Positions 6,786-37,154 of a DNA stretch of 64,000 bases are shown piece after piece (within the stretch, counting starts at the first letter, position 1; every line of letters starts with the position of its first letter). Source of the stretch: Paracoccus liaowanqingii (GTDB taxonomy: Bacteria > Pseudomonadota > Alphaproteobacteria > Rhodobacterales > Rhodobacteraceae); contig NZ_CP038439.1 in NCBI RefSeq assembly GCF_004683865.2, positions 908,501-972,500 of the forward strand, read 5' to 3'. The translations under genes and the position numbers were made by a program. The notes below the pieces were generated by a model. The model made no database searches. It worked only from the letters and a program-made list of their open reading frames with translations, and had not been told where the DNA came from.

Positions 6786-8410
<1,625 letters not shown>

Positions 8411-12133: not shown

Positions 12134-13633
12134 ATGCGCCTGATCCTGCCCTTGGCCCTCGCCGCCCTGACCGCCGCCCCGGCCCTTGCGACCGAGGGGG
12201 TGCTGGACGTGGTCGCCCCCTTCGAGATCAAGGGCGCCGACCCTTCCACCTCGGGCAACGTCTTCATCAAGATGGAGCTGGCCGAGACGCTGGTGAATGC
12301 CGATGCCGACGGGCGGCTTGTGCCGGGGCTGGCCACGGACTGGCAGGTCTCAAGGGACGGACTGTCCTGGCTGTTCCGCCTGCGCCAAGGGGTCCTCTTT
12401 CACGACGGCACGCCCCTGACGGCCGAGGCGGTGGCCGGGGCCTTGACCCATGCCCGCGCCAAGCCCGGGCTGCTGGACACCGCCCCCATCACGGCGATCG
12501 CGGCTGAGGGTGCCGATCTGCGCATCACCCTGTCCGAACCCTTCGCGCCGCTGCCGGCCTTCCTGTCGGAATATCGCGCGCTGATCTATGCGCCCGCCGC
12601 CTATGACGCGGCCGGCACCGCCACGCAGGTGATCGGCACCGGCCCCTATCGCCTGACCGCCCTGCAGGAACCCCTGCGGCTGGAGGCGGCGCGATTCGAC
12701 GATTACTGGGGGGAGGCGGCCCGGATCGACCGCGTCACCTACCAGGCCGTGGGCCGGGCCGAGACGCGGGCGCTTCTGGCTGAAAGCGGCGATGCCGATT
12801 ACGTCTTCAACCTGGACCCGGCCTCGGTCCGGCGCCTGTCGGATGGGAAGGCGGTCGAGGTCCTGTCGGTTCCCGTGCCCCGGTCCCTGCTGATCAAGGT
12901 GAATGCCGGGCATCCGGCGCTGTCGGACCCCCGCGCGCGGCGGGCCCTGTCGCTGGCCATCGACCGGCAGGGGCTGGCGCAGGCGATCCTGCGCTATCCC
13001 TCGGGCGCGGACCAGCTGTTCCCGCCCTCGGTCCCGGACTGGCATGTGGCGGGGCTGGAGCCTCTGGCCCACGACCCCCAGGCCGCCCGCGCCATCCTGG
13101 CCGATCTGGGCTGGACCCCCGGTCCCGACGGCATCCTGACGCGCGACGGCGAGAGGTTCAGCCTGGTCCTGACCACCTATCCCGACCGCCCCGAACTGCC
13201 GCTGTCGGCGGCGGTCATCCAGCAGATGATGGCCGGGATCGGGGTCGAGGTGGCCATCAACTCCACCAATTCCAGCGAGATCCCGGCGGGCCACATGGAC
13301 GGCTCGCTGGATCTGGCGCTGCTGGCGCGCAACTTCGCGCTGGTGCCCGATCCGATCGGCACGATCCTGACCGACTATGCGCAGGACGGCGATTGGGGCG
13401 CGATGGGCTGGGGCAACGACGCCTTCGCCGCGCTGATCCGCGATCTGGCGGCGGGCCAGGGCGGCCAGCCGCAGCGCGACGCGGCGATGGCCATCCTGCA
13501 GGCCGAGCTGCCGGTGATTCCCGTGGCCTGGTACCAGCAGACCGCCGCCGTCAGCCAAGGCGTGACCGGCGCGGTGATCGACCCGTTCGAGCGGACGATC
13601 GGGCTGTCGCGGATGGAATGGGCGGGCCAATGA
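12134..13633 (+). CDS. ABC transporter substrate-binding protein, family 5 (nickel/peptide/opine-type)
   Basis: A 499-aa periplasmic binding protein with a clear signal peptide (LILPLALAALTAAPALA) and SBP_bac_5 features: VAPFEIKGADPST, WLFRLRQGVLFHDGTPLTAEAV, the GTGPYRL motif and FDDYWGEAARIDRVTYQ. First of four overlapping genes (4-bp overlaps) that encode a complete importer. Such systems carry di- and oligopeptides, nickel, or metal-opine complexes. The Zur-like box just upstream suggests zinc or a zinc-metallophore, by inference only. Start chosen by CAGGAGA upstream. Confidence 0.85.
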   Translation: MRLILPLALAALTAAPALATEGVLDVVAPFEIKGADPSTSGNVFIKMELAETLVNADADGRLVPGLATDWQVSRDGLSWLFRLRQGVLFHDGTPLTAEAVAGALTHARAKPGLLDTAPITAIAAEGADLRITLSEPFAPLPAFLSEYRALIYAPAAYDAAGTATQVIGTGPYRLTALQEPLRLEAARFDDYWGEAARIDRVTYQAVGRAETRALLAESGDADYVFNLDPASVRRLSDGKAVEVLSVPVPRSLLIKVNAGHPALSDPRARRALSLAIDRQGLAQAILRYPSGADQLFPPSVPDWHVAGLEPLAHDPQAARAILADLGWTPGPDGILTRDGERFSLVLTTYPDRPELPLSAAVIQQMMAGIGVEVAINSTNSSEIPAGHMDGSLDLALLARNFALVPDPIGTILTDYAQDGDWGAMGWGNDAFAALIRDLAAGQGGQPQRDAAMAILQAELPVIPVAWYQQTAAVSQGVTGAVIDPFERTIGLSRMEWAGQ

Positions 13634-14568
13634 TCTGGCGGGCTTTGGGATACCGGCTGGCGCAGGCGCTGGTCGTGGCGCTGCTGGTCGGCGTGCTGTC
13701 CTTTCTGATGATGCAGGCGCTGCCGGGCGACATGGCCTTCCGCATCGCGGCGGGACGCTATGGCTATGACATGGTCGACGCGGCGGCGGCCGCGGCGGTG
13801 CGCGCCGAGCTGGGCCTGGACCGGCCCGCCTGGCAGGGCTTCCTGATCTGGCTGGGCGATCTGGCGCGGCTGGACCTGGGCGTCTCGGTCATCTCGGGCC
13901 GCCCGGTCTGGGCCGAGATCCGCCACCAGCTGGGCGCCAGCCTGCATCTGGCGGGCGTGGCGGTGATCCTGTCGGCGCTGATCGGCCCGCCGCTCGGCAT
14001 CTGGGCCGGGCTGCGCGCCGGGGGCTGGCTGGACCGGGGGCTGCTGGTCGTGTCCGCGGCGCTGCGGGCGGTGCCGCAGTTCCTGATGGGGCTGATCCTG
14101 ATCGTGCTGGTCTCGATCCAGCTGGGCTGGCTGCCGGCGGCGGGGCACGGGCAGGCCCGGCACGTCGCGCTGCCCGCGCTGACGCTGGCGCTGGGCATGG
14201 CGGCGGTCTCGGCCCGGGTGGCGCGGGACGCGATGGCCGAGGTGGCGGCGCGGCCCTTCTACGCCTTCGGGCGCTGGAAGGGCCTGACCGAGGGCCAGAT
14301 GCTGCGCCGCCACGGGCTGCGCAATATCGGCGTGGCGATGGTCACCTTCCTCTCGCTGCAATTCGTGATGCTGGTGGAGGGGGTCGTCGTTGTCGAATCG
14401 ATCTTCGGCTGGCCCGGGATCGGCCATGCGCTGGTCCATGCGATCTTCGGGCGCGACGTGCCGATGGTGCAGGGCACCGCCCTGCTGCTGGGCTTGGGCT
14501 TCGTGGTGCTGAACGCGCTGACCGACCTTCTGGCCCGCCTGATCGACCCGAGGGGGATTTCTGCATGA
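13630..14568 (+). CDS. ABC transporter permease (DppB/NikB-type)
   Basis: A 312-aa inner-membrane permease with about six helices. The N-terminal pattern LVGVLSFLMMQALPGDMAF is typical of DppB/NikB permeases, and the ATPase-coupling EAA loop reads ASARV-type AVSARVARDAMAEV ... RHGLRNIG. The loop EGVVVVESIFGWPGIGHAL is a further hallmark. Its ATG overlaps the preceding stop by 4 bases (ATGA), so expression is coupled to the binding protein. Confidence 0.88.
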   Translation: MIWRALGYRLAQALVVALLVGVLSFLMMQALPGDMAFRIAAGRYGYDMVDAAAAAAVRAELGLDRPAWQGFLIWLGDLARLDLGVSVISGRPVWAEIRHQLGASLHLAGVAVILSALIGPPLGIWAGLRAGGWLDRGLLVVSAALRAVPQFLMGLILIVLVSIQLGWLPAAGHGQARHVALPALTLALGMAAVSARVARDAMAEVAARPFYAFGRWKGLTEGQMLRRHGLRNIGVAMVTFLSLQFVMLVEGVVVVESIFGWPGIGHALVHAIFGRDVPMVQGTALLLGLGFVVLNALTDLLARLIDPRGISA

Positions 14569-15389
14569 GCCTGTCCGACGCCACCCTGGCCCCCGCCGCC
14601 GCCCGGGGCCCGACCCGCGCCCAAGGGGCCGGGGCCGCGATCCTGCTGGCCGTGGCGGCCTTTGCCTGGGGCACGCCCCTGCTGGTGCCCACCGATCCCC
14701 TGGACCAGAGCCTTCTGGACGGGCTGGCCGGTCCCGATGCGGCGGCGCCCTTCGGCTATGACCATCTGGGGCGGTCGCTGATGGCGCGGCTGGCGGCGGC
14801 GCTGCGGCTGTCGCTGGTGATCGCGGCGGCCGCCGTGATCTCGGCCGGGCTGCTGGGCGTGGCCTTGGGCGTGTTGGCCGCCTGGCGCGGCGGCTGGACC
14901 GACCGGGTGCTGGCCCTGCTGTCGGACAGCGTGCTGGCGCTGCCGGGGCTGCTGATGGTGCTGATCGTCAGCGCGATCATCCCCGACACCGCACTGGCCT
15001 TCTGGGTCGGCCTGACGCTGGTCCTGTGGATCGAGTATTTCCGCCTGACCCGCGCCGCGACCGCGCGCCTGCTGGCGGCCCCCGGCGTGCAGGCCAGCCG
15101 CCTGCTGGGCTTTGGCGCGCTCTACGTGTTCCGCCGCCATCTGTGGCCCGAGCTGGCGCCGATGCTGCTGACCGTCGCGGCCTTCGGGGCGGCGACGGCG
15201 ATCATGCTGATCGCGGCCCTGGGCTTCGTCAGCGTGGGCATCCGCCCGCCGCGCCCCGAGCTGGGCCAGATGATGGTCGAGCTGCTGCCCTATTACCGCG
15301 AGGCGCCGCTGGCGCTGGTCCAGCCCGTGATCGCGATCTTCCTGACCATCCTGGCCCTGAACCTGCTTGCCCAAGGACGCCGCGCATGA
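14565..15389 (+). CDS. ABC transporter permease (DppC/NikC-type)
   Basis: A 274-aa second permease of the importer with five to six helices. Motifs include the early DHLGRSLMARL, which is standard for DppC/NikC proteins, the EAA loop RLTRAATARLLAAPGVQASR, and AALGFVSVGIRPPRPELGQM near the end. It overlaps both neighbours by 4 bases and forms the heterodimeric channel with the previous gene product. Confidence 0.88.
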   Translation: MSLSDATLAPAAARGPTRAQGAGAAILLAVAAFAWGTPLLVPTDPLDQSLLDGLAGPDAAAPFGYDHLGRSLMARLAAALRLSLVIAAAAVISAGLLGVALGVLAAWRGGWTDRVLALLSDSVLALPGLLMVLIVSAIIPDTALAFWVGLTLVLWIEYFRLTRAATARLLAAPGVQASRLLGFGALYVFRRHLWPELAPMLLTVAAFGAATAIMLIAALGFVSVGIRPPRPELGQMMVELLPYYREAPLALVQPVIAIFLTILALNLLAQGRRA

Positions 15390-16804
15390 CCCTGCTGCTG
15401 AGTGCCACCGACATCTCGGTCCATGCCGGGGACACGCTGCTGGTCCACCCGGCCGCGCTGTCCCTGCGGGCGGGCCGCCCGCTGACCATCCTGGGCGAGA
15501 CCGGATCGGGAAAGAGCCTGCTGGCGCAGGCGCTGATCGGCACGCTGCCGGACGGGCTGACGGCGCGCGGCCGGGTCGCTTTGGGCGGGCAGGTGCTGGA
15601 TGCGGCGCGGCCCGCGGGGTTCCGCCCGCTCTGGGGGCGCCTGCTGGGCGTGCTGCCGCAGGAACCCTGGCTGTCGCTGGACCCCCTGATGCCCGCGGCG
15701 GCGCAGGTGGCCGAGGGGCATGCCTTCCTGCGCGGCCTGTCCTGGGCCCGGGCCCGCCGGGCGGCCGCCGCCGACCTGGACGAGCTGGGCCTGACCGGGG
15801 CGGGCGGGCAGCGTCCCGACCAGCTGTCGGGCGGCATGGCGCAGCGCGCGGCCTTCGCCGCCGCCCGCGCGGGCGGGGCGCGCATCATCATCGCCGACGA
15901 GCCGACCAAGGGCCTGGACGCCGACCGCCGCGACGAGATCTGCGCCCTGCTGCTGGCGGGCGTGGCGCAGGGCGGCGGGCTGCTGACCATCACCCATGAC
16001 CTGGCGCTGGCCCGCCAGCTGGGCGGCGATCTGATGGTCGTCCTGAAGGGCCGGGTGATCGAGCAGGGCCCGGCGGCGCGGATCCTCGCGGCGCCCGCCC
16101 ACGCCTATACCCGCGCGCTGATCGCCGCCGACCCGGCCGGCTGGCCGCAGGGCGCGACCCGCGCGGCAGAGGGCGCCCCCGTCCTGCGGGCCGAGGGACT
16201 GGCGGTCAGCCGGGATGGGCGGATGCTGGTCCAAGGTCTGGACCTGGCGGTCCATCCGGGCCAGATCCTGGGCGTCACCGGGCCGAGCGGCTGCGGCAAG
16301 TCGACCTTGGGCGACACGCTGCTGGGACTGGCGCCCGCCGATGCGGGCCGTGTCGCCAAGGCCCCGGGCATCGCGGCCGTGCGCTATCAGAAGCTGTACC
16401 AGGACCCGCCAAGCGCCTTCCCCCGCGCGGTCACCCTGGGCCGGGCGCTGGCCGATCTGGTGGGCCTGCACCGGCTGGACGGCGCCCGCATCGCGCCGCT
16501 GCTGGACCGGCTGCGCCTGTCGCCCGCCCTGCTGGCCCGCCGACCCACCGAGGTCTCGGGCGGCGAGCTGCAGCGGCTGGCACTGCTGCGGGTGCTGCTG
16601 CTGGACCCGGTCTTCCTGTTCGCCGACGAGCCGACCTCGCGCCTCGATCTGATCACGCAGGCCGAGGTGACGGCCCTGATGGTCGAGGTCGCGCGCGAGA
16701 CGGGGATGGGGCTGATGATCGTCAGCCATGACGTGCAGCTGGTCGCGCGGACCTGCGACCGGGTGGTGGCGCTGGCGGGCGCGGACCGGGCCCGCGCGGC
16801 CTAG
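15386..16804 (+). CDS. ABC transporter ATP-binding protein, two fused ATPase domains (DppD-DppF type)
   Basis: A 472-aa protein with two nucleotide-binding domains in one chain. The first (residues ~1-235) has Walker A GETGSGKS, signature LSGGMAQR and Walker B IIIADEPTKG. The second (~265-470) has Walker A GPSGCGKS, signature VSGGELQR and Walker B FLFADEPTSR. It drives the importer formed by the two preceding permeases. In most peptide systems these are separate DppD and DppF proteins, so the fusion is typical of compact nickel/opine-type operons. Its stop overlaps the stop of the convergent glycosyltransferase gene. Confidence 0.9.
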   Translation: MTLLLSATDISVHAGDTLLVHPAALSLRAGRPLTILGETGSGKSLLAQALIGTLPDGLTARGRVALGGQVLDAARPAGFRPLWGRLLGVLPQEPWLSLDPLMPAAAQVAEGHAFLRGLSWARARRAAAADLDELGLTGAGGQRPDQLSGGMAQRAAFAAARAGGARIIIADEPTKGLDADRRDEICALLLAGVAQGGGLLTITHDLALARQLGGDLMVVLKGRVIEQGPAARILAAPAHAYTRALIAADPAGWPQGATRAAEGAPVLRAEGLAVSRDGRMLVQGLDLAVHPGQILGVTGPSGCGKSTLGDTLLGLAPADAGRVAKAPGIAAVRYQKLYQDPPSAFPRAVTLGRALADLVGLHRLDGARIAPLLDRLRLSPALLARRPTEVSGGELQRLALLRVLLLDPVFLFADEPTSRLDLITQAEVTALMVEVARETGMGLMIVSHDVQLVARTCDRVVALAGADRARAA

Positions 16805-17856
16805 GCCAGCGCGTCCAGGACCTGCCCCGCCAGCCGCGCCGTGTCCGGCCAGCCGGGCAGGGCCGCGCCCGCGCGGGCGGCGGCGGCGGCGCGGGCGCTG
16901 CGCTCCGACGGGTCCTCCAGCAGGCGGCGCAGAGCCTGGGCCAGGGCGGGCACGTCGTCGGGGGCGACCAGCAGGCCCGCATCTTGTGGCACCGTGTCGG
17001 GCACGGCGCCAGTGCGGGTGCTGACGATGGGCAACCCGTGGGACAGCGCCTCGTCGAAGACGATGCCATAGCCCTCGTAACGGGTGGCCAGCGCGAAGAT
17101 CGAGGCCTGGGCGTAAAGCTGCGCCAGACGCTCGGGCGCGACCCGGCCCGCCAGCTCCAGCCGCGCACCAAGGCCGCTGTCGCGGATCTGGTCCTCGAGG
17201 GCCAGCACATGCGCCGCGTCCCAGGGGTTGCCCGCGATCACCGCCTGCCAGTCCAGATCGGCCAGCTGCGCCAGTGCCGCGATCAGCACGTCATGGCCCT
17301 TGCGCGGATGCAGGATCCCCACCGACAGGATCAGCGGCGGCGCGACGGGCGCCGGGGCGAGTGCGGTCGCGGGACGGTCCGTGCCGGGGCGGACAACGGT
17401 GATGCGCTCGGGGGCGACACCGTAGCGCTCGACCAGCATGGCGCGGGTATGGGGGCTGGGGACCAGCACATGGCGGGCATGGGCCAGATTGGCGCGCTCG
17501 GTCCGCCACAGGTGGTCGGCCAGATCGGCGGGCAGGGCGCTTTCCTGCGCCAGCGGATGGTGGATCATCGCCACGATGGGCGCCCTGATCGCGGCGACCC
17601 CTGCCGGGTCCAGCGCGCCGAAGGCCAGCCCGTCGACGATCACCGGGCGATCCTCCGGCAGCGCCTGCAGATCGGCCAGCGCCTGCGCCATCTGCGAGGG
17701 CGAGGGCGTGGGGAAGCTGTCGGGCAGGGCCAGCACCTCGACCCGGCGCCCTTGGGCGCGCAGCCCCTCGACCAGGCGGCGGTCATAGATGTAGCCGCCG
17801 GTCAGCGTGGTGATGTCGCCCGGCAGGGCGAAGGTCAGATGTCGAGGGTCGGTCAC
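16801..17856 (-). CDS. Glycosyltransferase family 4
   Basis: A 351-aa GT-B glycosyltransferase. The N-terminal half has FALPGDITTLTGGYIYDRR, a donor-side glycine-rich entry. The C-terminal half has LSVGILHPRKGHDVLIAAL, FALATRYEGYGIVFDEALSHGLP (the E-x7-E catalytic/nucleotide-sugar motif) and GLLVAPDD. It is the last gene of a four-gene overlapping operon. I chose the GTG at 17856, which overlaps the upstream stop (GTGA); a longer frame to 18753 only reads the neighbour out of frame. Likely glycosylates a membrane lipid or a polymer built by its neighbours; acceptor unknown. Confidence 0.85.
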   Translation of the reverse strand: MTDPRHLTFALPGDITTLTGGYIYDRRLVEGLRAQGRRVEVLALPDSFPTPSPSQMAQALADLQALPEDRPVIVDGLAFGALDPAGVAAIRAPIVAMIHHPLAQESALPADLADHLWRTERANLAHARHVLVPSPHTRAMLVERYGVAPERITVVRPGTDRPATALAPAPVAPPLILSVGILHPRKGHDVLIAALAQLADLDWQAVIAGNPWDAAHVLALEDQIRDSGLGARLELAGRVAPERLAQLYAQASIFALATRYEGYGIVFDEALSHGLPIVSTRTGAVPDTVPQDAGLLVAPDDVPALAQALRRLLEDPSERSARAAAAARAGAALPGWPDTARLAGQVLDALA

Positions 17857-18809
17857 GGATCGGCCTGTGCGATGGAGGAGGGAGTGGAGATCGCCGCCGC
17901 ATCCCGGCGCCGCTGTGTCAGAAGGACCAAGAGCCCCGGCAGGGTGCTGGCCAGAAACACCAGCCCGAAGGCAAGGCTGGCCGCGAAGCCCGCCTGTGCC
18001 GTGGCGCCGACCAAGGGGAAAAGGCCCGCCGCGGCGCCCTCGCGCAGGCCCCATCCGCTGACGGTGACGGGCAGGATCATCGTCAGCAGGATCAGCGGCA
18101 CCAGGACGGCGGTCTCGGAGGGCGACAGCACGGTGCCGGTCGCGCGGGCGCAGAAGGCGAAGGCTGCCAGGTTGGCGCCGGTGATGGCCAGGTTCAACGC
18201 GATCTGGCGGGGCAGGGCGTCGCGGGTCAGCAGGGTCGCCCGCAGGGCGGCGCGCAGGTCGCGGGCGGCCGCATCGGCGCGGCGCGACAGGCGCCCGGCG
18301 CCGGCGATGGCCAGCACTAGCCCCAGGGCCGCGACCAGCAGCATGCCGATCAGCCCCATGACCCATGCGGGCAGGGCCAGCCCGTCGGGATGCAGCGTGA
18401 CGGCCAGCGCGCCCACGGCCAGCACCAGGAATAGGGTGACCTGTCCGGCCAGCCGCTCGATCGCGACGGCGGCGCCCGCGCGCTTCAGCCCCGCCTGATG
18501 CCGGGCGCGGACGGCGCGGCCCGCATCGCCCATGACGCCGCCGGGCAGGGACTGGTTGACCACCTGCGCCAGATAGTATTCGCCCACCGCGCGGCTCATC
18601 GGGATGGTCTGGCCCAGCTGCCGCGCGGTGATCCGCCAGCGCAGCGCCGACAGCACCGTCTGCGCCGTCAGCGCCAGCATGGCGGCGGCCAGCCAGCGCG
18701 GGTCGGCCTGGGCCAGCAGGCGCAGGGCCTGCCGCCCGTCCAGCCCGAACCACAACAGGGACATGACCACCAAGGCCACCAGGATCTGCAGACCGCGTGT
18801 CACATTCAT
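17853..18809 (-). CDS. Lysylphosphatidylglycerol synthase/flippase-like membrane protein (YbhN/UPF0104 family)
   Basis: A 318-aa integral membrane protein with about eight helices. Family features are ALRWRITARQLG, YYLAQVVNQSLPGGVMGDAGRA (the conserved N-x4-P-G-G-x-G-D-x-x-R block) and VSGWGLREGAAAGLF. The fold is the N-terminal flippase-like domain of MprF without its aminoacyl-transferase half, so it probably moves or binds a lipid rather than lysylating one. It overlaps both neighbours by 4 bases. Confidence 0.82.
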   Translation of the reverse strand: MNVTRGLQILVALVVMSLLWFGLDGRQALRLLAQADPRWLAAAMLALTAQTVLSALRWRITARQLGQTIPMSRAVGEYYLAQVVNQSLPGGVMGDAGRAVRARHQAGLKRAGAAVAIERLAGQVTLFLVLAVGALAVTLHPDGLALPAWVMGLIGMLLVAALGLVLAIAGAGRLSRRADAAARDLRAALRATLLTRDALPRQIALNLAITGANLAAFAFCARATGTVLSPSETAVLVPLILLTMILPVTVSGWGLREGAAAGLFPLVGATAQAGFAASLAFGLVFLASTLPGLLVLLTQRRRDAAAISTPSSIAQADP

Positions 18810-20419
18810 GAAGGAGGTACGTCGCCCGCGCCGGAAAAGTTGCGCAGGAAAAGATCGCGAAGATCCTCCATCGGCCGCGTGGGGCTGCCGGGGGCCGGGA
18901 TCAGCCCCTCGGTCAGCCCCCAGGCGGCGGTGCGCGCGACCAGATGGGGCGGGCCGATCACGTGCAGCGGCACCTCGCGCCGCTCGTCCAGCCCGATCGA
19001 GGTCGCGGCCTGGTGATCGCCGACCAGCAGGATCAGCGGCGGCTCCTCGCCCTGCCGCAGGGCATAGTCCAGGGCCGCCTGCAGGGTATAGTCGACGCTG
19101 TCGCGATACTGCGCGCGCACCCGGTCGCGGTCGCGCCAGACGACATTGGGGGGATCGCCCTCCTGCGACATCGCGTTGAATTTGGTGCCGTCGCCCAGAT
19201 CCTCCCATGGCAGCATGCGCGGCACGGGGGTCCAGGGCGCGTGGGACGAGATCAGCGCGATCTGCGCAAACAGGCGGCGCGGATCGTCGCCCTGGCGCAG
19301 CAGCCGGTCGGTCGCGGCCAGGGTGAACTGGTCGGGCATGGTGACCCAGTTGAAGGGCAGCCCTTCATAGCCCAGATCGGGGAAGGCCAGGATGCGCTGG
19401 AAGCCCATCGTCAGCGCCTCGGGCCAGGGGCGCACGATGGCGGGCATCACGGCGGCGGTGCGGAAGCCCGCATCGGCGGCATGGTGGTAGAGGGTCTTGC
19501 GCCCGCTGACGATGGCCGCCTGATAGCGGGTCTGGTCGTCGATCCGCAGCCCGTTGGCCAAGGTCGCATGCGCCAGCCAGCTTTGCCCGCCATGCGTGGG
19601 CGAGGTCAGAAAGCCCGAGGCCGTGGCCACGCCCTGCGCGGTCAGCTGATCCTCGGCCCGGGCCAGGGTCTGCAGGTGCAGGTCCGCGAAGAAGTCCGTG
19701 TCAAAACTGGTGCGGCCATAGCTTTCCAGAAAGATCACCAGCACGTCGCGGTCGATCAGGCCCAGAGGATCGTCCAGCGCCGCCAGCGCCTCGTGGCCCA
19801 CATCGGCGCGAAAGCGGCGCAGTTCGGTCAGGGTGCGGGCGGCCAGCTGCGCGCGCTGGATGGCATAGGTCGAGGTGGCGGGGGTCAGCGCCTCGACCCC
19901 GCGCGGCGGGGCGGCGATCATCGCCACGACAAGGGCCACGGCTCCCGCCAGGGCCGACCGCCGCCGCCACAGGCTGTGCGGGGCCTGCCACAGGACGCGG
20001 CCCATCGCCCACCACAGGCCGACGAAGATCAGGACGATCAGCACGATGGCCCCCAGCACCGCCGCGACCGCGGCGGGCTTGCCCAGGCTGCCCGCGATCA
20101 GCCGGACCGAGGCGTCCAGCAGCGGCAGGTCCCCGACGGGGTTGAAGCGGCGGCCCAGGCTTTCCATCATCGCCAGATCGGCCACCTTGAGGACCGTGAC
20201 CGCCCCCAGCACCACGGTGACCAGCACGCGCAGCGCCGTGCCCGCGACCGACCGCCCGACGGCCAGTGCCGCCAGCAGCAAGGCCAGCAGCTCGGGCGCG
20301 GGCAGGGCCCAGGCCCGCCAGGTCATCCGCGCCATCTCGGTCGGCAGCGCGGTCAGGGCGTGCAGCAGCAGGATCGCGGCCAGCAGGGACCACAGGGCAG
20401 GCGGCCGGCGTTGGATCAC
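18806..20419 (-). CDS. Sulfatase-fold membrane enzyme (LtaS/phosphoglycerol or phosphoethanolamine transferase-like)
   Basis: A 537-aa protein with about four to five N-terminal helices (residues ~1-170) and a periplasmic alkaline-phosphatase-superfamily domain. DVLVIFLESYGRTSFD gives the metal/nucleophile region (Glu and Ser/Thr), SPTHGGQSWLAHATL resembles the substrate loop of LtaS-type enzymes, and LILLVGDHQAATSI gives the metal-binding Asp-His. Such enzymes move a phospho-alcohol head group (glycerol-phosphate, phosphoethanolamine) onto a lipid or glycan. The GTG at 20419 overlaps the upstream stop; the ORF extension to 20761 has no supporting composition. Confidence 0.8.
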   Translation of the reverse strand: MIQRRPPALWSLLAAILLLHALTALPTEMARMTWRAWALPAPELLALLLAALAVGRSVAGTALRVLVTVVLGAVTVLKVADLAMMESLGRRFNPVGDLPLLDASVRLIAGSLGKPAAVAAVLGAIVLIVLIFVGLWWAMGRVLWQAPHSLWRRRSALAGAVALVVAMIAAPPRGVEALTPATSTYAIQRAQLAARTLTELRRFRADVGHEALAALDDPLGLIDRDVLVIFLESYGRTSFDTDFFADLHLQTLARAEDQLTAQGVATASGFLTSPTHGGQSWLAHATLANGLRIDDQTRYQAAIVSGRKTLYHHAADAGFRTAAVMPAIVRPWPEALTMGFQRILAFPDLGYEGLPFNWVTMPDQFTLAATDRLLRQGDDPRRLFAQIALISSHAPWTPVPRMLPWEDLGDGTKFNAMSQEGDPPNVVWRDRDRVRAQYRDSVDYTLQAALDYALRQGEEPPLILLVGDHQAATSIGLDERREVPLHVIGPPHLVARTAAWGLTEGLIPAPGSPTRPMEDLRDLFLRNFSGAGDVPPS

Positions 20420-21150
20420 CGGGTTCTCCGCAGCCACAGCATGTCGCTGCCGAAGGACCAGAGCAGCGCGGCCGAGACCAGCCGGGTCAGCCAGATGGCC
20501 AGGTCCGGCGGCATCTGCGGCAGCTGCAGCGCGATCAGCGTCGCCAGCTGCAGCACGCAGACGGTCTTGCGCACGTAGCTGACCGGCAGGGGCGCCGTCA
20601 TCCACGGAAAGATCCAGCCCAAGGCCACGAAGACATAGCGCATGATGCCCAAGATCAGCACCTCGGCGCCCACCGGGCTGCCGACATAGGCGTGCAGCGC
20701 CAGGATCAGGGCCAGGCCGGCGTCGACCTCCATGTCGAAGCGCGCGCCGAAGGCCGAGCACAGCCCGCTGCGGCGGGCCAGGTACCCGTCGACGCCGTCC
20801 AGCGTCAGGGACAGGGTGGCGATGCCGGCCACGATCCCGCCCGCCGCGCCCACGCCCACCAAGGGCGCCAGCAGCGCGATGGTCAGGGCCATGCGCATCA
20901 GCGTCACCGCGTTGCAGGCGCCAAGCCGGTCATGCGGGTAATGGCGCAGCATCATCACGCCGACCAGCGCCGCGGCCGCCAGATAAGCCCCGCCTGCCAG
21001 CAGCGCGCCGCTGCCCTGGTTCAGGACCAGCACCCCCACGGCCAAGGTCAGGGCCAGCCCGGCGGGCAGCGCCAGCGCCAGCCCCTCGGGCAGGTGGCGG
21101 CGCGCGGCGGCGGGCGGAATCGAGGCGGTGCGGGGCGGGGAAATCTGCAT
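20416..21150 (-). CDS. CDP-alcohol phosphatidyltransferase family protein
   Basis: A 244-aa membrane enzyme with about six helices. The complete CDP-alcohol motif is present: LDGVDGYLARRSGLCSAFG followed by ARFDMEVD, i.e. D-x2-D-G-x2-A-R-x8-G-x3-D-x3-D, which binds metal and CDP. It transfers a phosphatidyl or phospho-alcohol group to an alcohol acceptor; which one is unknown. First gene of the four-gene operon. An ATG at 21174 lies inside a promoter-like element (21157-21184), so the ATG at 21150 is preferred. Confidence 0.82.
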   Translation of the reverse strand: MQISPPRTASIPPAAARRHLPEGLALALPAGLALTLAVGVLVLNQGSGALLAGGAYLAAAALVGVMMLRHYPHDRLGACNAVTLMRMALTIALLAPLVGVGAAGGIVAGIATLSLTLDGVDGYLARRSGLCSAFGARFDMEVDAGLALILALHAYVGSPVGAEVLILGIMRYVFVALGWIFPWMTAPLPVSYVRKTVCVLQLATLIALQLPQMPPDLAIWLTRLVSAALLWSFGSDMLWLRRTR

Positions 21151-21156
21151 CGCCAG

Positions 21157-21184
21157 ACAATATGACCGAAACATGACGCGTCAA
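21157..21184 (-). promoter_or_regulatory. Promoter of the lipid-operon, possibly giving a leaderless transcript
   Basis: Read on the minus strand, TTGACG (21184-21179) and TATTGT (21162-21157) are 16 bases apart. The first base of the ATG at 21150 is only 7 bases past the -10 element, so transcription may begin at or next to the start codon, with no Shine-Dalgarno sequence. Confidence 0.5.
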
Positions 21185-21254
21185 GCGCCCCGGCAAAGAC
21201 GCTTGCGTGATCGCCCCGGACCGCTATCGTGGTCCCGATGGGGGAGGGGACGCC

Positions 21255-21806
21255 ATGGCCCTGGGCGCGAACGGCTACGGAACGACGGCGCGCGTGCTGC
21301 ACTGGCTGGTCGCGGCGCTGATCCTGGCGATGATCCCGGTGGGCGTGATCATGGTCCGCGAAGGGCTGGATCGCGGGTTTCAGGACGCCTTGTTCATCTT
21401 TCACAAGAACGTGGGCAGCCTGCTGATCGCCCTCGTGGCGCTGCGGCTGGTCTGGCGGCTGACCCATCCGCCCGCGCCCTTGCCCGCCCATCTGCCGGGC
21501 TGGCAGCGCCGGGCGGCGGGCCTGTCGCATCTGGCGCTGTATGTCCTGATGGTCGCGATGCCGCTGTCGGGCTATGTCCGCGTCCGCGCCGGGGGCTTCC
21601 CGATCGAGGCGCTGGACGCGATCGGCCTGCCCACGCTGGTGCCCCGGTCCGAGGCGCTGGCCGACGCCGCCTCGGCCCTGCATCAGGGGGCCGCCTGGGC
21701 GCTGCTCGCGGTGCTGGCGCTGCATGTCGGCGCGGGGCTGCACCATGCGCTGATCCTGCGCGACGGCGTCTGGCAGCGAATCTGGCCGCCCCGTGCCCGG
21801 CCCTGA
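21255..21806 (+). CDS. Cytochrome b561-type membrane protein
   Basis: A 183-aa four-helix di-haem b protein of the bacterial cytochrome b561 family, passing electrons between quinol and periplasmic partners. It starts GYGTTARVLHWLVAALI (haem His), continues FHKNVGSLLIALVALRLVWR (second His and conserved Arg), LSHLALYVLMVAMPLSGYV, and LHQGAAWALLAVLALHVGAGLHH with further His ligands. The ATG at 21255 follows a GGGAGGGGA ribosome site. Transcribed away from the lipid operon. Confidence 0.85.
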   Translation: MALGANGYGTTARVLHWLVAALILAMIPVGVIMVREGLDRGFQDALFIFHKNVGSLLIALVALRLVWRLTHPPAPLPAHLPGWQRRAAGLSHLALYVLMVAMPLSGYVRVRAGGFPIEALDAIGLPTLVPRSEALADAASALHQGAAWALLAVLALHVGAGLHHALILRDGVWQRIWPPRARP

Positions 21807-30525: not shown

Positions 30526-30549
30526 GGGGCCGCCGTCAGGGGCGGCCCC
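30526..30549. terminator. Bidirectional hairpin between metQ and thiX
   Basis: GGGGCCGCC (30526-30534) and GGCGGCCCC (30541-30549) form a perfect 9-bp stem with a 6-base loop. It overlaps the last codons of thiX and sits 9 bp after metQ, so it probably ends both convergent transcripts. Confidence 0.7.
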
Positions 30550-31300
30550 GCTCCAGGGCGCGCTGGACCAGCCCGGCGCCCGCGAACAGCCCGACCCCCA
30601 TCGCCGCCAGCACCGTCAGGGCGGCGAACATCAGGTCGGTCTGCCCGCGCCCATTGGCCATCAGCATCAGGTGCCCCAGCCCCCGGCTGGAGCCGACCCA
30701 TTCCCCGATGATCACCGCGAAGGGCGCCTGCACGGCGGCCAGCCGCAGCCCCGATCCAAGCGCGGGCAGCGCATGGGGCAGGCGGATCAGCATCAGCTCG
30801 GGCAGGGGCCGCGCCCGCATCATCCGCGCCAGATCCTCCAGCGCGGGCGGCGGGCGCATCAGCGCATCGAAGAGGACCGAGGTGACGGGGAAATAGACGA
30901 CCAGCGCCACCATCACCACCTTGGACGGCGCCCCATAGCCCAGCCACAGCGTCACCACCGGCGCCAAGGCAAAGATGGGCACCGCCTGCGCCGCCACCAG
31001 CAGGGGCCGCATCAGCCGCCGCGCCACGGGCGACAGCGCCAGGTTCAGCGCCGTGACCACCCCAAACGCGACCCCTGCCGCCAGCCCCATCGCCAGATTG
31101 GCCAGCGTGAAGCCCGCATGCTCGGCCAGCATCGGCGCATGGGCCAGCAGCGCCGCCCCGACGCGCCCGGGCCCGGGCAGGATGAAGGGCGGCACCCCGG
31201 TCGCCCAGACCACCGCCTGCCACAGGGCCAGCACGACCAGCGGCAGCACGGCAAGCCCCGCCCCCCGCCGCGCAAGCGCCGGAAACCGCCCCCCCGTCAT
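30536..31300 (-). CDS. thiX: Thiamine-precursor ABC transporter permease
   Basis: A 254-aa permease of the SsuC/TauC type with six helices. It has [32 protein letters not shown], the EAA loop region with [28 protein letters not shown], and the terminal GLVQRAL. In context (ThiY binding protein, ThiZ ATPase, TenA and thiamine genes) it imports aminomethyl- or formylamino-pyrimidine precursors of HMP. Last gene of the TPP-controlled operon; it overlaps thiZ by 4 bases. Confidence 0.85.
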
Positions 31301-32016
31301 GGCGCAAATGACCGCGACAGTGCCCCGAACAGCGCCGCCTGCGCCGCCAGCACCTCGGGCGCCGCCAGCGGGCGCGGGACGGGACCGGGCGGCAGGGGCA
31401 AGGCCCGGCTGCCCGCTGCCCCGATCAGATAGGCCCGGTCGGCCAGCCGCGCCGCCTCCAGCGGATCATGGGTGATCAGGATCACCGTCCGCCCGGCCAG
31501 CGCCCGCGCCGCCAGATCCTGCATCGCCGCCCGCGTCGCCGCATCCAGGGCCGAGAAGGGCTCGTCCAGGACCACCACCGGGCAATCCTCGATCAGCGTG
31601 CGGGCCAGCGCGACGCGCTGCCGCTGCCCGCCCGACAGCGCGGCGGGCCGTCGGTCCTCCATCCCCGCCAGCCCCAGATCCGCCAGCAGCGCCCGCGCCC
31701 GCGCCAGATCGGGCCGCGCCCCCCGCAGCCGCGCCCCGAGGGTGACATTCGCCAGCGCCGAGGCCCAAGGCAGCAGCTGATCCGACTGCCCCATCAGCGC
31801 CACCCGCCCCCCCGGCACCTGCAACCGGCCCTCCAGCCGCGCCGCCACCGGCAGTCCCGCCACCATCCGCCCCAAGGTCGACTTCCCCACGCCCGAGGCC
31901 CCCATCAGGCAGGTCCACCCCCCGGCCACCGCCGCGATCTCCACCCCCCGCGCCAGCACCGCCCCGTTCAGCCACAGATCCCCCCGGATCCCCACCGCCC
32001 CCTCGCCCCTCTTCAT
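31297..32016 (-). CDS. thiZ: Thiamine-precursor ABC transporter ATP-binding protein
   Basis: A 239-aa ATPase with Walker [10 protein letters not shown], signature LSGGQRQR, Walker [13 protein letters not shown] and switch His in [15 protein letters not shown]. Couples to ThiX and the ThiY receptor. The ATG at 32016 lies in the shared motif AAGATGAA of an intergenic repeat, 67 bp after tenA; a GTG at 31995 with a GAGGGGG run upstream is an equally likely start, so the N-terminus is uncertain. Confidence 0.85.
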
Positions 32017-32085
32017 CTTGGCTCAAATATCCCGGGGGGAGTCCGCAGGACGGGGGGCAGCGCCCCCCTGCCAGCCGTCCCCGTC
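32012..32085 (-). repeat. Dispersed intergenic repeat element (copy in thiamine operon)
   Basis: Read on the minus strand: a GC hairpin (GGGGGGC ... GCCCCCC) followed by CCCCCCGGGATATTTGAGC and AAGATGAA. The GGATATTT-n-AAGA(T)GAA ending recurs at 48846-48868, 55060-55083 and 61672-61690. It fills the only sizable gap in the thiamine operon. Confidence 0.6.
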
Positions 32086-32761
32086 ATGTCCGATCCAGCC
32101 CCATCTGCCAGAACCCGACCTCCAGCTGCGTGGCCTGCGTGAAATGCCGCGCCAGCGTCGCCGCGCGGGGCAGGGCGGGCCAGTCGGGTCCAAGCCGCGC
32201 CTCCAGCGCCGCATCGGTCAGGGCGCCGACCTCGTGGCAGACGCGCTGATAATCCGGCCCGCCATAGGTTGCGGTCCAGTCGCCATAGGGCCCGCCGCTG
32301 GCCGCATGCACCCGTCCGATCTCGCCATAGCCGAAGACGCAGGGCGCCAGCGCCGCCAGCAGGTCCAGGATGTCGCCCGAATAGCCGGTCGCCTGCACAT
32401 AGCGGGTATAGGCCATGTTGGCGGGGGATTCCGGGGTCCGTTCCAGCATCGCCTCGGTGATCCCTTCCCGCCCGCAGATCTCGACATGCAGGGGCATCTC
32501 GCCATTCAGCAGCCCATGCGCGATGGACGAGGCCGCGCGCATCTCGGACAGGCGGTCGGACTTGGCGAAGACCAGCGACCAGCTGCGCGCGAAATGCAAA
32601 AGGAACACGTAATCCTGCTGCAGGTAATGCAGGAAGCTGTCCCGGGGCAGGCTGCCCGCCGCCAGCTGGCGTACGAAGTGATGGTCCACATAGCGGTTCC
32701 ACTCCGCCCCCGCCGCCTGCCGCCACAGGGCGAAGGCGCGGCCATAGTCCGGGGCGCTCAT
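32084..32761 (-). CDS. tenA: Aminopyrimidine aminohydrolase TenA (thiaminase II family)
   Basis: A 225-aa all-helical protein that salvages thiamine breakdown products by hydrolysing aminomethyl-pyrimidine to HMP. Visible are FLHYLQQDYVFLLHFARSW with Asp and Tyr of the site, the catalytic cysteine in LAALAPCVFGYGEIG, GPYGDWTATYGGPDY, and a C-terminal Glu near TQLEVGFW. The Cys makes this the TenA_C type. It overlaps thiY by 4 bases. Confidence 0.9.
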   Translation of the reverse strand: MSAPDYGRAFALWRQAAGAEWNRYVDHHFVRQLAAGSLPRDSFLHYLQQDYVFLLHFARSWSLVFAKSDRLSEMRAASSIAHGLLNGEMPLHVEICGREGITEAMLERTPESPANMAYTRYVQATGYSGDILDLLAALAPCVFGYGEIGRVHAASGGPYGDWTATYGGPDYQRVCHEVGALTDAALEARLGPDWPALPRAATLARHFTQATQLEVGFWQMGLDRT

Positions 32762-33690
32762 GGCGCGTTCACGTCGATGGCCAGATCGGACAAGGGCAGC
32801 CCGCCCGGCGTCGCGCCCTGGTTCTGCAGAAACGCCTCGAAGCGCAGATAGCGGCCTGCATCCAGGGCTGCGGGGCGGGCGGCAAAGCGCGGCCAGGTGT
32901 CGTGCCACGCGGCCTCGTTCAGCGGCGTCTGCAGTTCCGATGCGGTGGCCGCGAACATCTCCCACGCCGCCCCGGGGTCGTTCTGGATGAAGGCCGTGGC
33001 GCGTTCGGTGGCGTCCAGGAACCCGGCCACCGCGGCTGTGTCCATGCGGGCGGGATCGGCCAGATAGATCAACTCGTCATAGGCGGGGATGCCATGCGCC
33101 TCGGGGTAGAGGCAGCGCCCCTCGAATCCCTCCAGCCGCAGCTGGTTCAGCTCGAAATTGCGGAAGGCGCCGATGACGCCGTCCACCTGTCCCGACATCA
33201 GCGCCGGAGAGATCGACCAGCCGATATTGATCTGCTCGACCGCGTCGGGGGCCAGCCCGCCATCGGCCAGCATGGCGTTCAGCATCACCTCCTGCACGCC
33301 CGCGACGGCAAAGCCCACCTTGCGGCCCTCCAGATCGGCGGGGGTCTCGATGCCGCTGTCGGCCAGGACCACAAGGCAGGTCAGCGGGGTCTCGACCAGC
33401 GTGCCCACGCGGGTGACGGGCAGGTCCTGATGGCGCGACAGATGCAGCTGCGGCTGATAGCTGACGGCGATGTCCACCCGCCCGGCGGCCACCATGCGCG
33501 GCGGATCATTGGGGTCCGAGGGGGTCACCAGCGCGACCGCCAGCCCGGCCTCGGAGAAATATCCCAGCTCCTCGGCCAGCACGATGGGGGCGTGGTCAGG
33601 ATTGACGAACCAGTCCAGCATGACGGTCAGGTCCGTCTGCGCATGGGCGGGCAGGGCCAGCGTGGCAAAGGCAAATGTCAGCGCTTTCAA
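32758..33690 (-). CDS. thiY: Thiamine-precursor (HMP/FAMP) binding protein
   Basis: A 310-aa periplasmic receptor of the NMT1/ThiY family. It has a signal peptide (LTFAFATLALPAHAQ), then LDWFVNPDHAPIVLAEELGYF, DIAVSYQPQLHLSRHQDLPV, GRKVGFAVAGVQEVMLNAML and GVIGAFRNFELNQL. ThiY binds formylamino-pyrimidine in related bacteria. Its genes for permease, ATPase and TenA follow directly, which fits import followed by conversion to HMP. Confidence 0.88.
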   Translation of the reverse strand: MKALTFAFATLALPAHAQTDLTVMLDWFVNPDHAPIVLAEELGYFSEAGLAVALVTPSDPNDPPRMVAAGRVDIAVSYQPQLHLSRHQDLPVTRVGTLVETPLTCLVVLADSGIETPADLEGRKVGFAVAGVQEVMLNAMLADGGLAPDAVEQINIGWSISPALMSGQVDGVIGAFRNFELNQLRLEGFEGRCLYPEAHGIPAYDELIYLADPARMDTAAVAGFLDATERATAFIQNDPGAAWEMFAATASELQTPLNEAAWHDTWPRFAARPAALDAGRYLRFEAFLQNQGATPGGLPLSDLAIDVNAP

Positions 33691-34652
33691 GGGGTCTCTC
33701 CTAGGTCGAATTCGGTCAGGGCCAGCAGGGCGATCTGCCCCGGCCAGCGCGATTGCAGCACCTGGCCCGCATTCTGCGCGCGCAGGCCCGTGCGGCAGGC
33801 CAGCACGACGCGCGGGGCCGAGCCGGGGTCCAGGTCGGCGATGCGCTCGGGCGGGACATGGGTCGCCCCGGCAAAGGGCGGGCTTTCGGTCCGCAGGTCG
33901 ATCAGCAGATCGCCGGGGCGGATCTGGCTGGCGGCGATGAAGGGCAAGGGGGCCGCAGGCTCGGGCGCGGCATCAAAACGGAAGCCGCCCATCCGCCAGC
34001 TGGCCGCATCGAAGCTGATCAGGCGCCCGAGCGGCGAGGGGTCCAGCCCGGCCAGCACCGCCAGCGCCATCTGCGCCTGCAGCGCGCCAATCATCCCCAC
34101 GATCGGCCCCAGCACGCCCGCCGTGGCGCAGCTGGCGCCTTGCCGGGGCAGGTCGGGGAACACCGCCCGCAGGCTGGGCGCCCCCGCCCCGCAGGCCAGC
34201 GCATAGCCCGACAGGGCCAGCGCGGATCCCGAGATCAGCGGCCTGCCCGCCGTCCTGCAGGCATCCGACAGGGTCAGGCTGACGGCGAAGCTGTCGGCGC
34301 AATCCAGCACCGCATCGGCATCCCCGACCAGCGCGGGCGCATTGGCGGGGGTCAGCCATTCCACGCGGGGGATGACCTGAACGTCAGGGTTCAGCGCGGC
34401 CATCACGGCGGCGGCGGCGCTGGCTTTGGGCTGGCCGATCTGGTCGCTGCGATAGAGCGGCTGGCGGTGCAGGTTGGTGACCTCGATCCGGTCGGGATCG
34501 ACCAGCGTGATCCGCCCCAGCCCCGCCGCCACCAGATATTGCAGCGCCGGGCACCCCAGGCCCCCCGCGCCCACGATCAGGACATGGGCGGCAGCCAGCC
34601 GGGCCTGCCCCTCCGGGCCGATCTGGGGCATCTGGCGGGCATAGCGGTTCAT
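33687..34652 (-). CDS. thiF: ThiF/MoeB-type adenylyltransferase fused to a rhodanese-like domain
   Basis: A 321-aa protein. Residues 1-~235 are an E1-like adenylation domain: VLIVGAGGLGCPALQYL (ATP-binding), DPDRIEVTNLHRQPLY, ADAVLDCADSFAVSLTL and GASCATAGVLGPIVG. The last ~75 residues resemble rhodanese, with active-site Cys in VVLACRTGLRAQ. It should adenylate the ThiS C-terminus and help form its thiocarboxylate. The usual zinc cysteine pair (CxxC near the middle) is replaced by GAPSLRAVFP, an oddity. It overlaps thiE by 4 bases; start 34652 chosen for that reason. Confidence 0.85.
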   Translation of the reverse strand: MNRYARQMPQIGPEGQARLAAAHVLIVGAGGLGCPALQYLVAAGLGRITLVDPDRIEVTNLHRQPLYRSDQIGQPKASAAAAVMAALNPDVQVIPRVEWLTPANAPALVGDADAVLDCADSFAVSLTLSDACRTAGRPLISGSALALSGYALACGAGAPSLRAVFPDLPRQGASCATAGVLGPIVGMIGALQAQMALAVLAGLDPSPLGRLISFDAASWRMGGFRFDAAPEPAAPLPFIAASQIRPGDLLIDLRTESPPFAGATHVPPERIADLDPGSAPRVVLACRTGLRAQNAGQVLQSRWPGQIALLALTEFDLGETP

Positions 34653-35245
34653 GCCGTCACCGCCAGCCAGTCGCGCAGACGGCCTTCGGGGTCGGGATGC
34701 AGGGTGATGTCGGTGACGGCAGAGACCACATCCGCGCCCGCCGCGAAGGCGCCGGGCGCGCGGTCGACCGACATGCCGCCGATGGCGATCAGGGGGATGT
34801 CTCCGATCAGGGACTTCCACTCGGTGACCCGCTCCAGCCCCTGTTGATGCCATTTCATCTGCTTGAGGATCGTCGGATAGACCGGCCCGAGCGCCACGTA
34901 ATCGGGCGCCAGCGCCAAGGCCCGGTCCAGTTCTGCATGGTCGTGCGTCGAGACGCCAAGCCGCAGCCCGGCGCGGCGGATGGCGGGCAGGTCGGCGCTG
35001 TCCAGATCCTCCTGCCCCAGATGCAGCCAGTCGGCGCCCTCGTCGATGGCGATCTGCCAGTGGTCGTTCACGACCAGCGTGGCGCCATGCTGCCGCGCCA
35101 AGACCAGCCCACGGCGGATCTGGCCCTGCAGATCAGGGGACGTGCGGTCCTTCAGGCGCAGCTGCACCAGACGGACGCCCAGGGGCAGGGCGCGGTCCAG
35201 CCAGGCGGCATCGTCGAAGATCGGATAGAATCGCGGCAGCATCAC
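34649..35245 (-). CDS. thiE: Thiamine phosphate synthase
   Basis: A 198-aa TIM barrel that couples HMP pyrophosphate with thiazole phosphate to thiamine phosphate. Motifs are [18 protein letters not shown], the phosphate-binding [48 protein letters not shown] and [11 protein letters not shown]. The start is a GTG at 35245 overlapping the thiG stop (GTGA), or the ATG three bases on. Confidence 0.92.
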
Positions 35246-36003
35246 AGCCAGGCCTTTCCCAGAAGAGGGGTCGAGGGCACGCCCATCTCGCGCACCCCCA
35301 TCGGATCGGCGCCGCGCGCCAGTGCGCCCGCCTGCACGGCCAGCCCGAAGGCGCGGGCCATGGCGACCGGATCGCCCGCCTGCGCGACGGCGCTGTTCAG
35401 AAGGACGGCGTCAAAGCCCATCTCCATCGCCTCGGCCGCGTGGCTGGGCAGGCCCAGACCGGCGTCGATGACCATGGGAATGTCGGGGAAGGCGGCGCGC
35501 AGGCTGCGCAGCCCGTGGCGATTGTTCAGGCCCATGCCCGACCCGATCGGCGCGCCCCAAGGCATCAGCACCCGGCAGCCCGCATCGACCAGCCGCTGCG
35601 CCAGCACCTGATCCTCGGTCGTGTAGGGGAAGACCTGGAACCCCTCGGCACACAGGGTTTCCGCCGCCTCCAGCAGGCCGAAGGGGTCGGGCTGCAGCGT
35701 GTCGGCATGCCCGATCACCTCCAGCTTGATCCAGTCGGTCTGGAAGACCTCGCGGGCCATGCGGGCGGTGGTGACGGCCTCGCGTGCGGTGTGGCATCCG
35801 GCGGTGTTGGGCAACACGCGCAGGCCCATCCCCCGGATCAGATCCCAGAAGGCCTGGCCCCCTCCGGCCTCGCGCCGCAGCGACACGGTGGCGACCGAGG
35901 CGCCGCTGGCCCGGAACGCCGCCTCCATGATGGTGGGCGAGGGGTATTGCGCCGTCCCGAGCATCATCGCGCCGGGCAGGGTCACGCCATAGAAATCGCG
36001 CAT
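35242..36003 (-). CDS. thiG: Thiazole synthase
   Basis: A 253-aa (beta/alpha)8 enzyme that forms thiazole phosphate from DXP, dehydroglycine and ThiS thiocarboxylate. Key motifs are [40 protein letters not shown], the Schiff-base lysine in [38 protein letters not shown] and [20 protein letters not shown]. The ATG at 36003 comes 4 bp after the thiS stop. Confidence 0.94.
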
Positions 36004-36007
36004 CCGC

Positions 36008-36205
36008 TCAGCCCCCCTGCATGGGGGCCAGCACTTCCAGCCGGTCGCCATCGCGCAGCGGCTGCTCCGCGCGGGCGGCCGAGGGCAGGAACTCGCCGTT
36101 CAACGCGGTGGCGACGCGGGCCTCCCCCCAGCCCAGTTCCGACAGCGCGCCCGCGACGGTGGTGGCGGCGATGTCGCGGGGGTCTCCGTTGACCTCAATC
36201 CTCAT
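36008..36205 (-). CDS. thiS: Sulfur carrier protein ThiS
   Basis: A 65-aa ubiquitin-like protein beginning [12 protein letters not shown] and ending in the diagnostic Gly-Gly (PMQGG), the residue adenylated and thiocarboxylated by ThiF. It supplies sulfur to ThiG. It overlaps thiO by 11 bases and lies directly before thiG. Confidence 0.93.
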
Positions 36206-37154
36206 GGATCAGCTCTCCCTTGGTTCCGGTGGTCAGGTAATCGGCGGCCTGAGCGGCCAGCGCGGGCGCCATCAGATAGCCGTGGCGAAAAAGGCCGTTC
36301 AGATGGATCACCCGGCCCCGCAGGGTCACGCGGGGGATGTTGTCGGGGAAGGCCGGGCGCAGGTCGGTCCCCAGCTCGATCACCGAGCTTTCGGCAAAAC
36401 GCGGATCCAGCGCATAGGCCGCCGACAGCAATTCCAGAACGGATCGCGCGGTGACGGGCGCGCGCGAGGCGCTTTCGATCTGCGTGGCGCCCAGCATGAA
36501 CAGGCCGCCCGCGCGCGGCACGATATACAGCGGATGGCGCGGGTGCAGCAGGCGGACGGGCCGTGTCAGGGTGATCTCGGGCGCGTGCAGGACGATCATC
36601 TCGCCCCGCACGCCGCGCAGGCCGGGCAGGGCGGCTGTCAGCCCGCGCGCGTCGATCACCGGGCCGGGAATGTCGGCGGGATCGGCCTCGGCGCGTTCGA
36701 CGGTGACGCCCCGGGCGGCCAGTGCGGCCAGCAGGTCGGCCAGCGCGCGTCGGGGGTCCAGATGCGCCTCGTCGGGGAAATGCAGGCCCTGCCGGGGGGG
36801 CAGGTCGGGTTCCAGCGCGGCGCTGTCGCAGGTCCGGTGGCCGGTGGCGCGGCGGGCAAAGCGCGCCAGCTCGGACCGGTCGCGGTCCAGCGCCAGGACC
36901 AGCGTGCCGAGGCGGGTGACCGGGGTGACCGCCGCCCATGCGTTGGCGGCGTCCGCGCCGAGGCGCGTGATGACGGGCTCCGCCGTTACCCCCTCGCACC
37001 AGGGCGCCAGCATGCCGCCCGCCCACCAGGAACAGCCATGCGGCCCCGGCGGGCCGTTGCGGTCCAGGATGCGCGGCGTGACACCGCGCCCCAGCAGCTC
37101 GTGTGCGGCAAAGAGGCCCGCCACCCCGGCGCCGATGATGGTGACGTCAGACAT
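36195..37154 (-). CDS. thiO: Glycine oxidase ThiO
   Basis: A 319-aa FAD-dependent oxidase that makes dehydroglycine from glycine for thiazole formation in place of ThiH. The dinucleotide-binding VTIIGAGVAGLFAAHELL is at the N-terminus, followed by CSWWAGGMLAPWCEG, typical of ThiO, and the C-terminal HLNGLFRHGYLMAPALA. The ATG at 37154 overlaps the thiD stop by 8 bases. Oxygen-dependent chemistry fits an aerobic organism. Confidence 0.9.
   Translation of the reverse strand: MSDVTIIGAGVAGLFAAHELLGRGVTPRILDRNGPPGPHGCSWWAGGMLAPWCEGVTAEPVITRLGADAANAWAAVTPVTRLGTLVLALDRDRSELARFARRATGHRTCDSAALEPDLPPRQGLHFPDEAHLDPRRALADLLAALAARGVTVERAEADPADIPGPVIDARGLTAALPGLRGVRGEMIVLHAPEITLTRPVRLLHPRHPLYIVPRAGGLFMLGATQIESASRAPVTARSVLELLSAAYALDPRFAESSVIELGTDLRPAFPDNIPRVTLRGRVIHLNGLFRHGYLMAPALAAQAADYLTTGTKGELIHED

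Follow-up and report, generated by a model that had tools for sequence, protein, structure and literature searches.

In a 64,000-nucleotide stretch of the Paracoccus liaowanqingii genome (contig NZ_CP038439.1, positions 908,501 to 972,500; hereafter the window), four genes on the minus strand between positions 16801 and 21174, successively overlapping by 4 bp, appear to constitute the membrane half of a split and modular pathway and not a self-contained lipid operon; the other half is either a biosynthetic module, which we call module A, or an importer. The four genes encode a CDP-alcohol phosphotransferase (CDP-AP; PF01066, 20416..21174), a membrane phosphotransferase of the LtaS/EptA fold, here called LtaS-like (18806..20419), a flippase-like LPG_synthase_TM protein of the MprF flippase domain family (PF03706, 130 bits; 17853..18809) and a family 4 glycosyltransferase (GT4; PF00534, 105 bits; 16801..17856). 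A preliminary description had recognised these genes as an uncharacterised set that combines a head-group-forming enzyme and a sugar transferase with what may be a lipid mover and with a periplasmic head-group transferase; this stands, the periplasmic enzyme being identified by its fold. A divergent cytochrome b561 gene on the plus strand (21207..21806, with a possible start ATG at 21255; PF01292, 103.5 bits) is a probable further member of the system. We propose, with a probability of roughly 0.45, that a glycosylated head group derived from GTP is joined to phosphatidate, flipped across the membrane and moved as a phosphodiester to a periplasmic glucan.

Evidence for a divided pathway comes from the neighbourhoods of the LtaS-like gene in relatives, of which we compared the best 80 of 569 confirmed. 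A match to CDP-AP is found at 79 of these loci, to GT4 at 66, to the flippase-like protein at 66 and to the cytochrome b561 at 69, and the four-gene order, which the preliminary description had exposed to just this comparison, is kept with defined insertions; the annotated records of Dinoroseobacter shibae and Alloyangia have the same core as the window. Three supply modules occur with this core. Module A consists of RibA, a zinc-dependent alcohol dehydrogenase (Zn-ADH), a 6-pyruvoyl-tetrahydropterin synthase (PTPS) homologue of the SCO6650 type, a methyltransferase and a RibD reductase; module B is an NMT1/THI5-type importer (substrate-binding protein (SBP), ATPase and fused permease), with which GT4 is retained; and module D is a sugar-type importer (MalE-like SBP and permeases), with which GT4 is absent. 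Scored by any of its five genes, module A is present at 19 loci and module B at 40, the two are never found together, and four of the 21 loci with neither carry module D, one of these on a truncated contig that keeps a portion of one permease. The 19 module A loci all have PTPS, methyltransferase and RibD, while 18 have the Zn-ADH and 16 have RibA, and a gene of the inositol monophosphatase (IMPase) family is found at 16 of the 80 loci, every one of them with module A.

On a tree of the LtaS-like proteins, made by a quick method from 79 rows (L072 dropped out of the 80), the module labels need six changes as drawn, and the well-supported branches alone force at least four gains or losses of B and at least three of A, so that module swaps must be recurrent. 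The same tree pairs a module B type locus of Mesorhizobium microcysteis (L078) with a Marivita row (support 93), which is likely to be a case of horizontal transfer. Identical LtaS-like proteins were seen in Marinibacterium profundimaris and in a metagenome-assembled genome named Fulvimarina (L053 and L055), reflecting either transfer or a misbinned contig.

Whole genomes tell of the same association. Among 244 Rhodobacterales genomes the LtaS-like gene is present in 51, PTPS in 23 and the module B SBP in 32, using cut-offs chosen after the score gaps were seen (E<1e-40 for PTPS, which dropped seven weaker matches, and E<1e-160 for the SBP, where the next best match was 5.9e-66). One or other marker occurs in 47 of the 51 LtaS-like-positive genomes against seven of the 193 negatives. 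The positives divide into 19 with PTPS only, 27 with the SBP only, one with both and four with neither, a mutually exclusive distribution (Fisher p 3e-9), and all four of the genomes with neither carry module D beside the LtaS-like gene. In the only genome to have A as well as B (G234) the importer is broken (L130, 9446-12278): an internal stop interrupts the SBP, and the permease combines a stop with a missing stretch and a change of frame. GT4 and the ATPase match remain open in that genome, and three intact controls are free of stops. Here the importer has been lost beside synthesis, leaving a decayed module B. Members with different supplies occur within three genera; in Paracoccus, the 12 positive genomes in the sample comprise seven with PTPS and five with the SBP, and the three negatives have neither. 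One Paracoccus genome has two LtaS-like copies (G300:C4 and G300:C10), each near a module B SBP.

The window belongs to a clade with no supply module at its locus, and its genome holds a complete module A 0.9 Mb away, in one stretch together with an IMPase-family gene and an FkbM methyltransferase (L143, 4945-10797); the RibA of this module is one of three genes with a GTP cyclohydrolase II (GCH II) domain in that genome. A module B elsewhere in the same genome was considered and rejected, since the best NMT1 matches share no more than 25-28% identity with the module B protein and the module B profile reaches at best E 7.2e-16, where true members give 1e-160 or better.

Across 289 genomes sampled from the whole class, PTPS is present in 20 of 22 LtaS-like positives (the two without it being G333 and G404) and in 16 of the 267 others (Fisher p 4e-19). 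The two genes lie within 20 kb of each other in five of these 20 genomes, on the same contig at 77 kb to 3.4 Mb in four and on different contigs in 11, although contig breaks may conceal some linkage. More distant clusters reassemble the components. A Rhizobiaceae cluster contains a cytochrome b, RibD, methyltransferase, GT4, PTPS, Zn-ADH, RibA, CDP-AP, the flippase-like gene and a sulfatase; a plasmid of the gammaproteobacterium Thiodictyon carries Zn-ADH, PTPS, GT4, methyltransferase, cytochrome b, RibD and CDP-AP, and just past this cluster lies a weak LtaS-like match (H28, 33% over 58%); and actinobacterial plasmids of Microbacterium and Streptomyces carry CDP-AP, Zn-ADH, PTPS, GT4 and methyltransferase, to which the Streptomyces plasmid adds RibA and a creatininase-family gene.

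The composition of module A suggests what is being supplied. A GCH II (RibA) domain and a RibD C-terminal reductase domain were identified, and the RibD-type protein has no deaminase domain by Pfam; the combination of RibA with the RibD reductase domain implies a pyrimidine derived from GTP. The creatininase-family gene of the Streptomyces plasmid would suit such a compound, since a Sinorhizobium protein of this family is reported to deformylate a RibA-type intermediate (PMC9478397). The PTPS homologue matches SCO6650 of Streptomyces coelicolor (PDB 3d7j, E 2.5e-37) and has HGA in place of the HGH zinc motif in all 23 aligned rows. This places it outside PTPS subfamilies I to III (QueD, biopterin and folate), which have HGH with a Cys or Glu upstream (PMC5041015), and the homologue might accommodate a pterin-like substrate yet not carry out the usual reaction.

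The distribution of GT4 bears on the order of steps. It is present at all 39 of 39 module B loci and at 17 of 19 module A loci, the two misses being short contigs, and absent with module D, both at the four loci of the 80 and at the four in the exceptional genomes (one of the eight being a cut contig); searches of whole genomes found it in none of four D genomes and in four of four controls, one control match having an internal TGA. The nearest structure to the module B SBP, a weak match, is the pyrimidine-binding protein 3ix1 (E 3.7e-8), almost tied with an unnamed SBP (8e-8), and those nearest to the module D SBP are sugar-binding proteins (MalE-like). Taken together, the retention of GT4 with B, its absence with D and the likenesses of the binding proteins point to an order of steps and a candidate class of compound: most simply, B would bring in an aglycone for GT4 to glycosylate, and D would bring in the finished glycoside.

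At the other end of the pathway, the LtaS-like protein combines membrane helices with a periplasmic alkaline-phosphatase-like domain in the manner of LtaS and EptA. E232, S280, H393, D468 and H469 are invariant in all 52 rows of its alignment, and their order and spacing suggest that they may correspond to the metal-binding and nucleophile residues of LtaS; the presumed nucleophile is surrounded by an invariant GGQSWLxH. Formylglycine sulfatases are defined by a C/S-x-P-x-R motif at the nucleophile, and no motif resembling it is found there, so that a true sulfatase was rejected. The fold and the conserved residues are established, at a great distance from characterised enzymes: identity to LtaS/LtaP, GacH, BcsG and EptA/MCR-1 is 8-15%, neither Pfam nor NCBIfam gave a match, and the PDB sequence set gave chance-level matches only to the protein and zero matches to its profile. 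The CDP-AP of the window has both the DGxxAR...GxxxDxxxD motif and the fold of its family, and the flippase-like protein (318 aa) matches PF03706 alone, without the flippase and synthase pairing of MprF (15.8 bits for bifunc_MprF, against a cut-off of 600).

The scheme that we infer from these data, for substrates, head-group chemistry, flip, direction of transfer, acceptor and redox role alike, requires five steps. First, the RibA paralogue would open GTP and the RibD-type reductase would reduce the product (module A, as at L143), after which the IMPase-family phosphatase, the HGH-less PTPS homologue, the Zn-ADH and the methyltransferase would yield a pyrimidine- or pterin-like aglycone; relatives with an importer would instead take the aglycone up. 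Second, GT4 would add a sugar, before attachment to lipid. Third, CDP-AP would attach the glycoside, as such or as a phosphate, to phosphatidate, for which CDP-diacylglycerol is the putative donor. Fourth, the PF03706 protein would help to flip the resulting lipid. Fifth, the LtaS-like enzyme, via a phospho-enzyme at Ser280, would pass the phospho-head group on to an acceptor in the periplasm. A glucan of the OpgG/OpgH type is the most likely acceptor, and the transfer would resemble those of phosphoglycerol and phosphoethanolamine by OpgB and OpgE. A redox-active product might explain why the b561 cytochrome accompanies the set. An extension of this scheme, in which many Alphaproteobacteria decorate their periplasmic glucans with a GTP-derived, pterin-like glycoside through a lipid carrier of its own, the decorated glucan serving outside the cytoplasm as a redox cofactor, diffusible or tethered, wired to the quinone pool by b561, and in which some species scavenge the aglycone or glycoside from their neighbours, is a speculation on which we would place little weight.

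The choice of a glucan as acceptor rests on genes for osmoregulated periplasmic glucans (OPGs), to which the product is tied in two ways, by co-occurrence with OpgG and by neighbours resembling OpgH. OpgG (PF04349) is present in all 51 LtaS-like-positive Rhodobacterales genomes against 105 of the 193 negatives. Taking the three markers together, all 58 genomes that carry at least one of them have OpgG, as do 98 of the other 186; opgG or opgH flanks 22 of the 80 loci. In six of the seven Rhodobacterales genomes that have PTPS or the SBP and lack the LtaS-like gene, an OpgH-like gene of another group adjoins the module, as it does in Methylosinus (L136, L137, L138, L139, L140, L141 and L126; assigned by best match, at 45-100% identity to two queries), and this gene may be an alternative end to the pathway where the LtaS-like gene is missing.

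Three rival explanations were considered. The lipid-linked compound might itself be the end product, a phosphatidyl-linked, glycosylated pterin-like head group displayed on the outer leaflet, and the LtaS-like enzyme would then modify this lipid, either by adding phosphoethanolamine or phosphoglycerol or by releasing the head group. The Microbacterium plasmid, which has CDP-AP and the flippase-like gene with a PTPS module and no LtaS-like match, and the Streptomyces plasmid, whose LtaS-like gene is distant from the cluster, would both suit such a product, but the OpgG counts and the opgG and opgH genes near the loci point to a glucan in the Rhodobacterales, and we consider this explanation unlikely, if deserving of serious attention. 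More doubtful still is a system like OpgB or CgmB, in which CDP-AP would make an ordinary glycerophospholipid, plain phosphoglycerol would be placed on OPGs, and GT4 and modules A, B and D would be unrelated and linked by chance. The nearest structure to the window CDP-AP is a phosphatidylglycerophosphate synthase, LtaS and GacH are phosphoglycerol transferases, and the co-occurrence with OpgG is as expected; yet a GTP-derived supply module would be needless for an ordinary head group, and across whole genomes 47 of the 51 with the LtaS-like gene have the marker of A or B and the remaining four have D; in the class sample, PTPS and the LtaS-like gene are mostly not close neighbours. For the same reason glycerophosphate or ethanolamine phosphate, which the preliminary description favoured as the head group, has lost ground. 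Finally, that a secreted or surface small molecule (riboflavin- or pterin-like, with a redox, signalling or metal-binding role) is exported by attachment to lipid and release, the OPG link reflecting habitat or lineage, is an improbable account despite b561 at most loci and in distant clusters and importers that suggest a compound or precursor available outside cells, because the OpgH-like gene beside the module in genomes without the LtaS-like gene again points to glucan.

Several observations nonetheless count against the transfer of a GTP-derived head group to a glucan, or limit its reach. The 64-kb window contains no OPG gene, and its genome has one OpgG elsewhere. With the LtaS-like gene missing from the Microbacterium cluster and distant in Streptomyces, glucan transfer cannot be universal, and the end product may differ where the other OpgH-like gene stands beside a module lacking the LtaS-like gene. 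The flippase-like match is missing at 14 of the 80 loci, counting the locus only, some loci being cut. A riboswitch scan of seven loci (L102 and L059 left out) found none, for flavin or otherwise, and only a group II intron. The NMT1 family also binds compounds other than pyrimidines, and the search for module D covered the 80 loci and the exceptional genomes, not the whole of the A and B genomes. Exclusivity of PTPS and SBP over all 244 genomes is not significant (a single genome has the pair, 22 have PTPS alone and 31 the SBP alone; p 0.33), and the Fisher p values (7e-38, 9e-13, 1e-18, 0.33 and 3e-9 for the five tables of the 244-genome test, 2e-7 for the locus table, and 7e-12, 5e-14, 4e-5 and 2e-7 in the analysis with OpgG counts) take genomes as independent and ignore phylogeny.

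The surroundings of the four genes have features of their own. A peptide/nickel-type ABC operon, judged from the look of its translations, runs on the plus strand from 12134 to 16804 and converges with GT4, the stop codons of its last gene and of GT4 overlapping by 4 bp on opposite strands (16801-16804). On the minus strand at 30536-37953 there is a thiamine set with an NMT1-family binding protein (PF09084) and ABC partners, and with TenA- and thiamine-synthesis-like genes recognised from their translations only. A PF03372 gene of the endonuclease/exonuclease/phosphatase family recurs near the core at 27 of the 80 loci (e.g., L047, near 7396-8112). A phage origin for the set was rejected, with zero matches among 50,697 phage records.

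If correct, our proposal gives a pathway context to the orphan PTPS homologue of the SCO6650 type and to the RibA paralogue linked with it, predicts an unrecognised OPG substituent or phospholipid head group, and predicts that related bacteria divide into those that make and those that import a shared compound. We found no description of the gene set in the open-access library searched (most subscription journals lay outside it), and we know of no phospholipid pathway that equals it; such an identity would have overturned the preliminary description. SCO6650 itself is listed only as an uncharacterized protein, whereas its relatives here occur with a membrane operon, with importers and with genes for glucans; the Bandarian laboratory has worked on the Streptomyces proteins. 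The GCH II and RibD reductase domains are shared with the RibA and RibD steps of riboflavin synthesis, from which the present operon differs in having PTPS, Zn-ADH and methyltransferase genes. Among members of the alkaline phosphatase superfamily, LtaS/LtaP, GacH, BcsG and EptA/MCR-1 all have a gene context different from that described here. The closest known mechanism is that of OpgB and OpgE in E. coli, where OPGs receive phosphoglycerol and phosphoethanolamine from membrane phospholipids (PMC3818809). The likeness would lie in the proposed transfer of a phospho-head group from an inner-membrane lipid to an OPG, while the present set differs in bringing a CDP-AP, a flippase-like gene, a GT4 and a GTP-derived supply module of its own. 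Its parts belong to known families, and the whole is possibly a new variant of head-group transfer from lipid to glycan, perhaps with a new head group.

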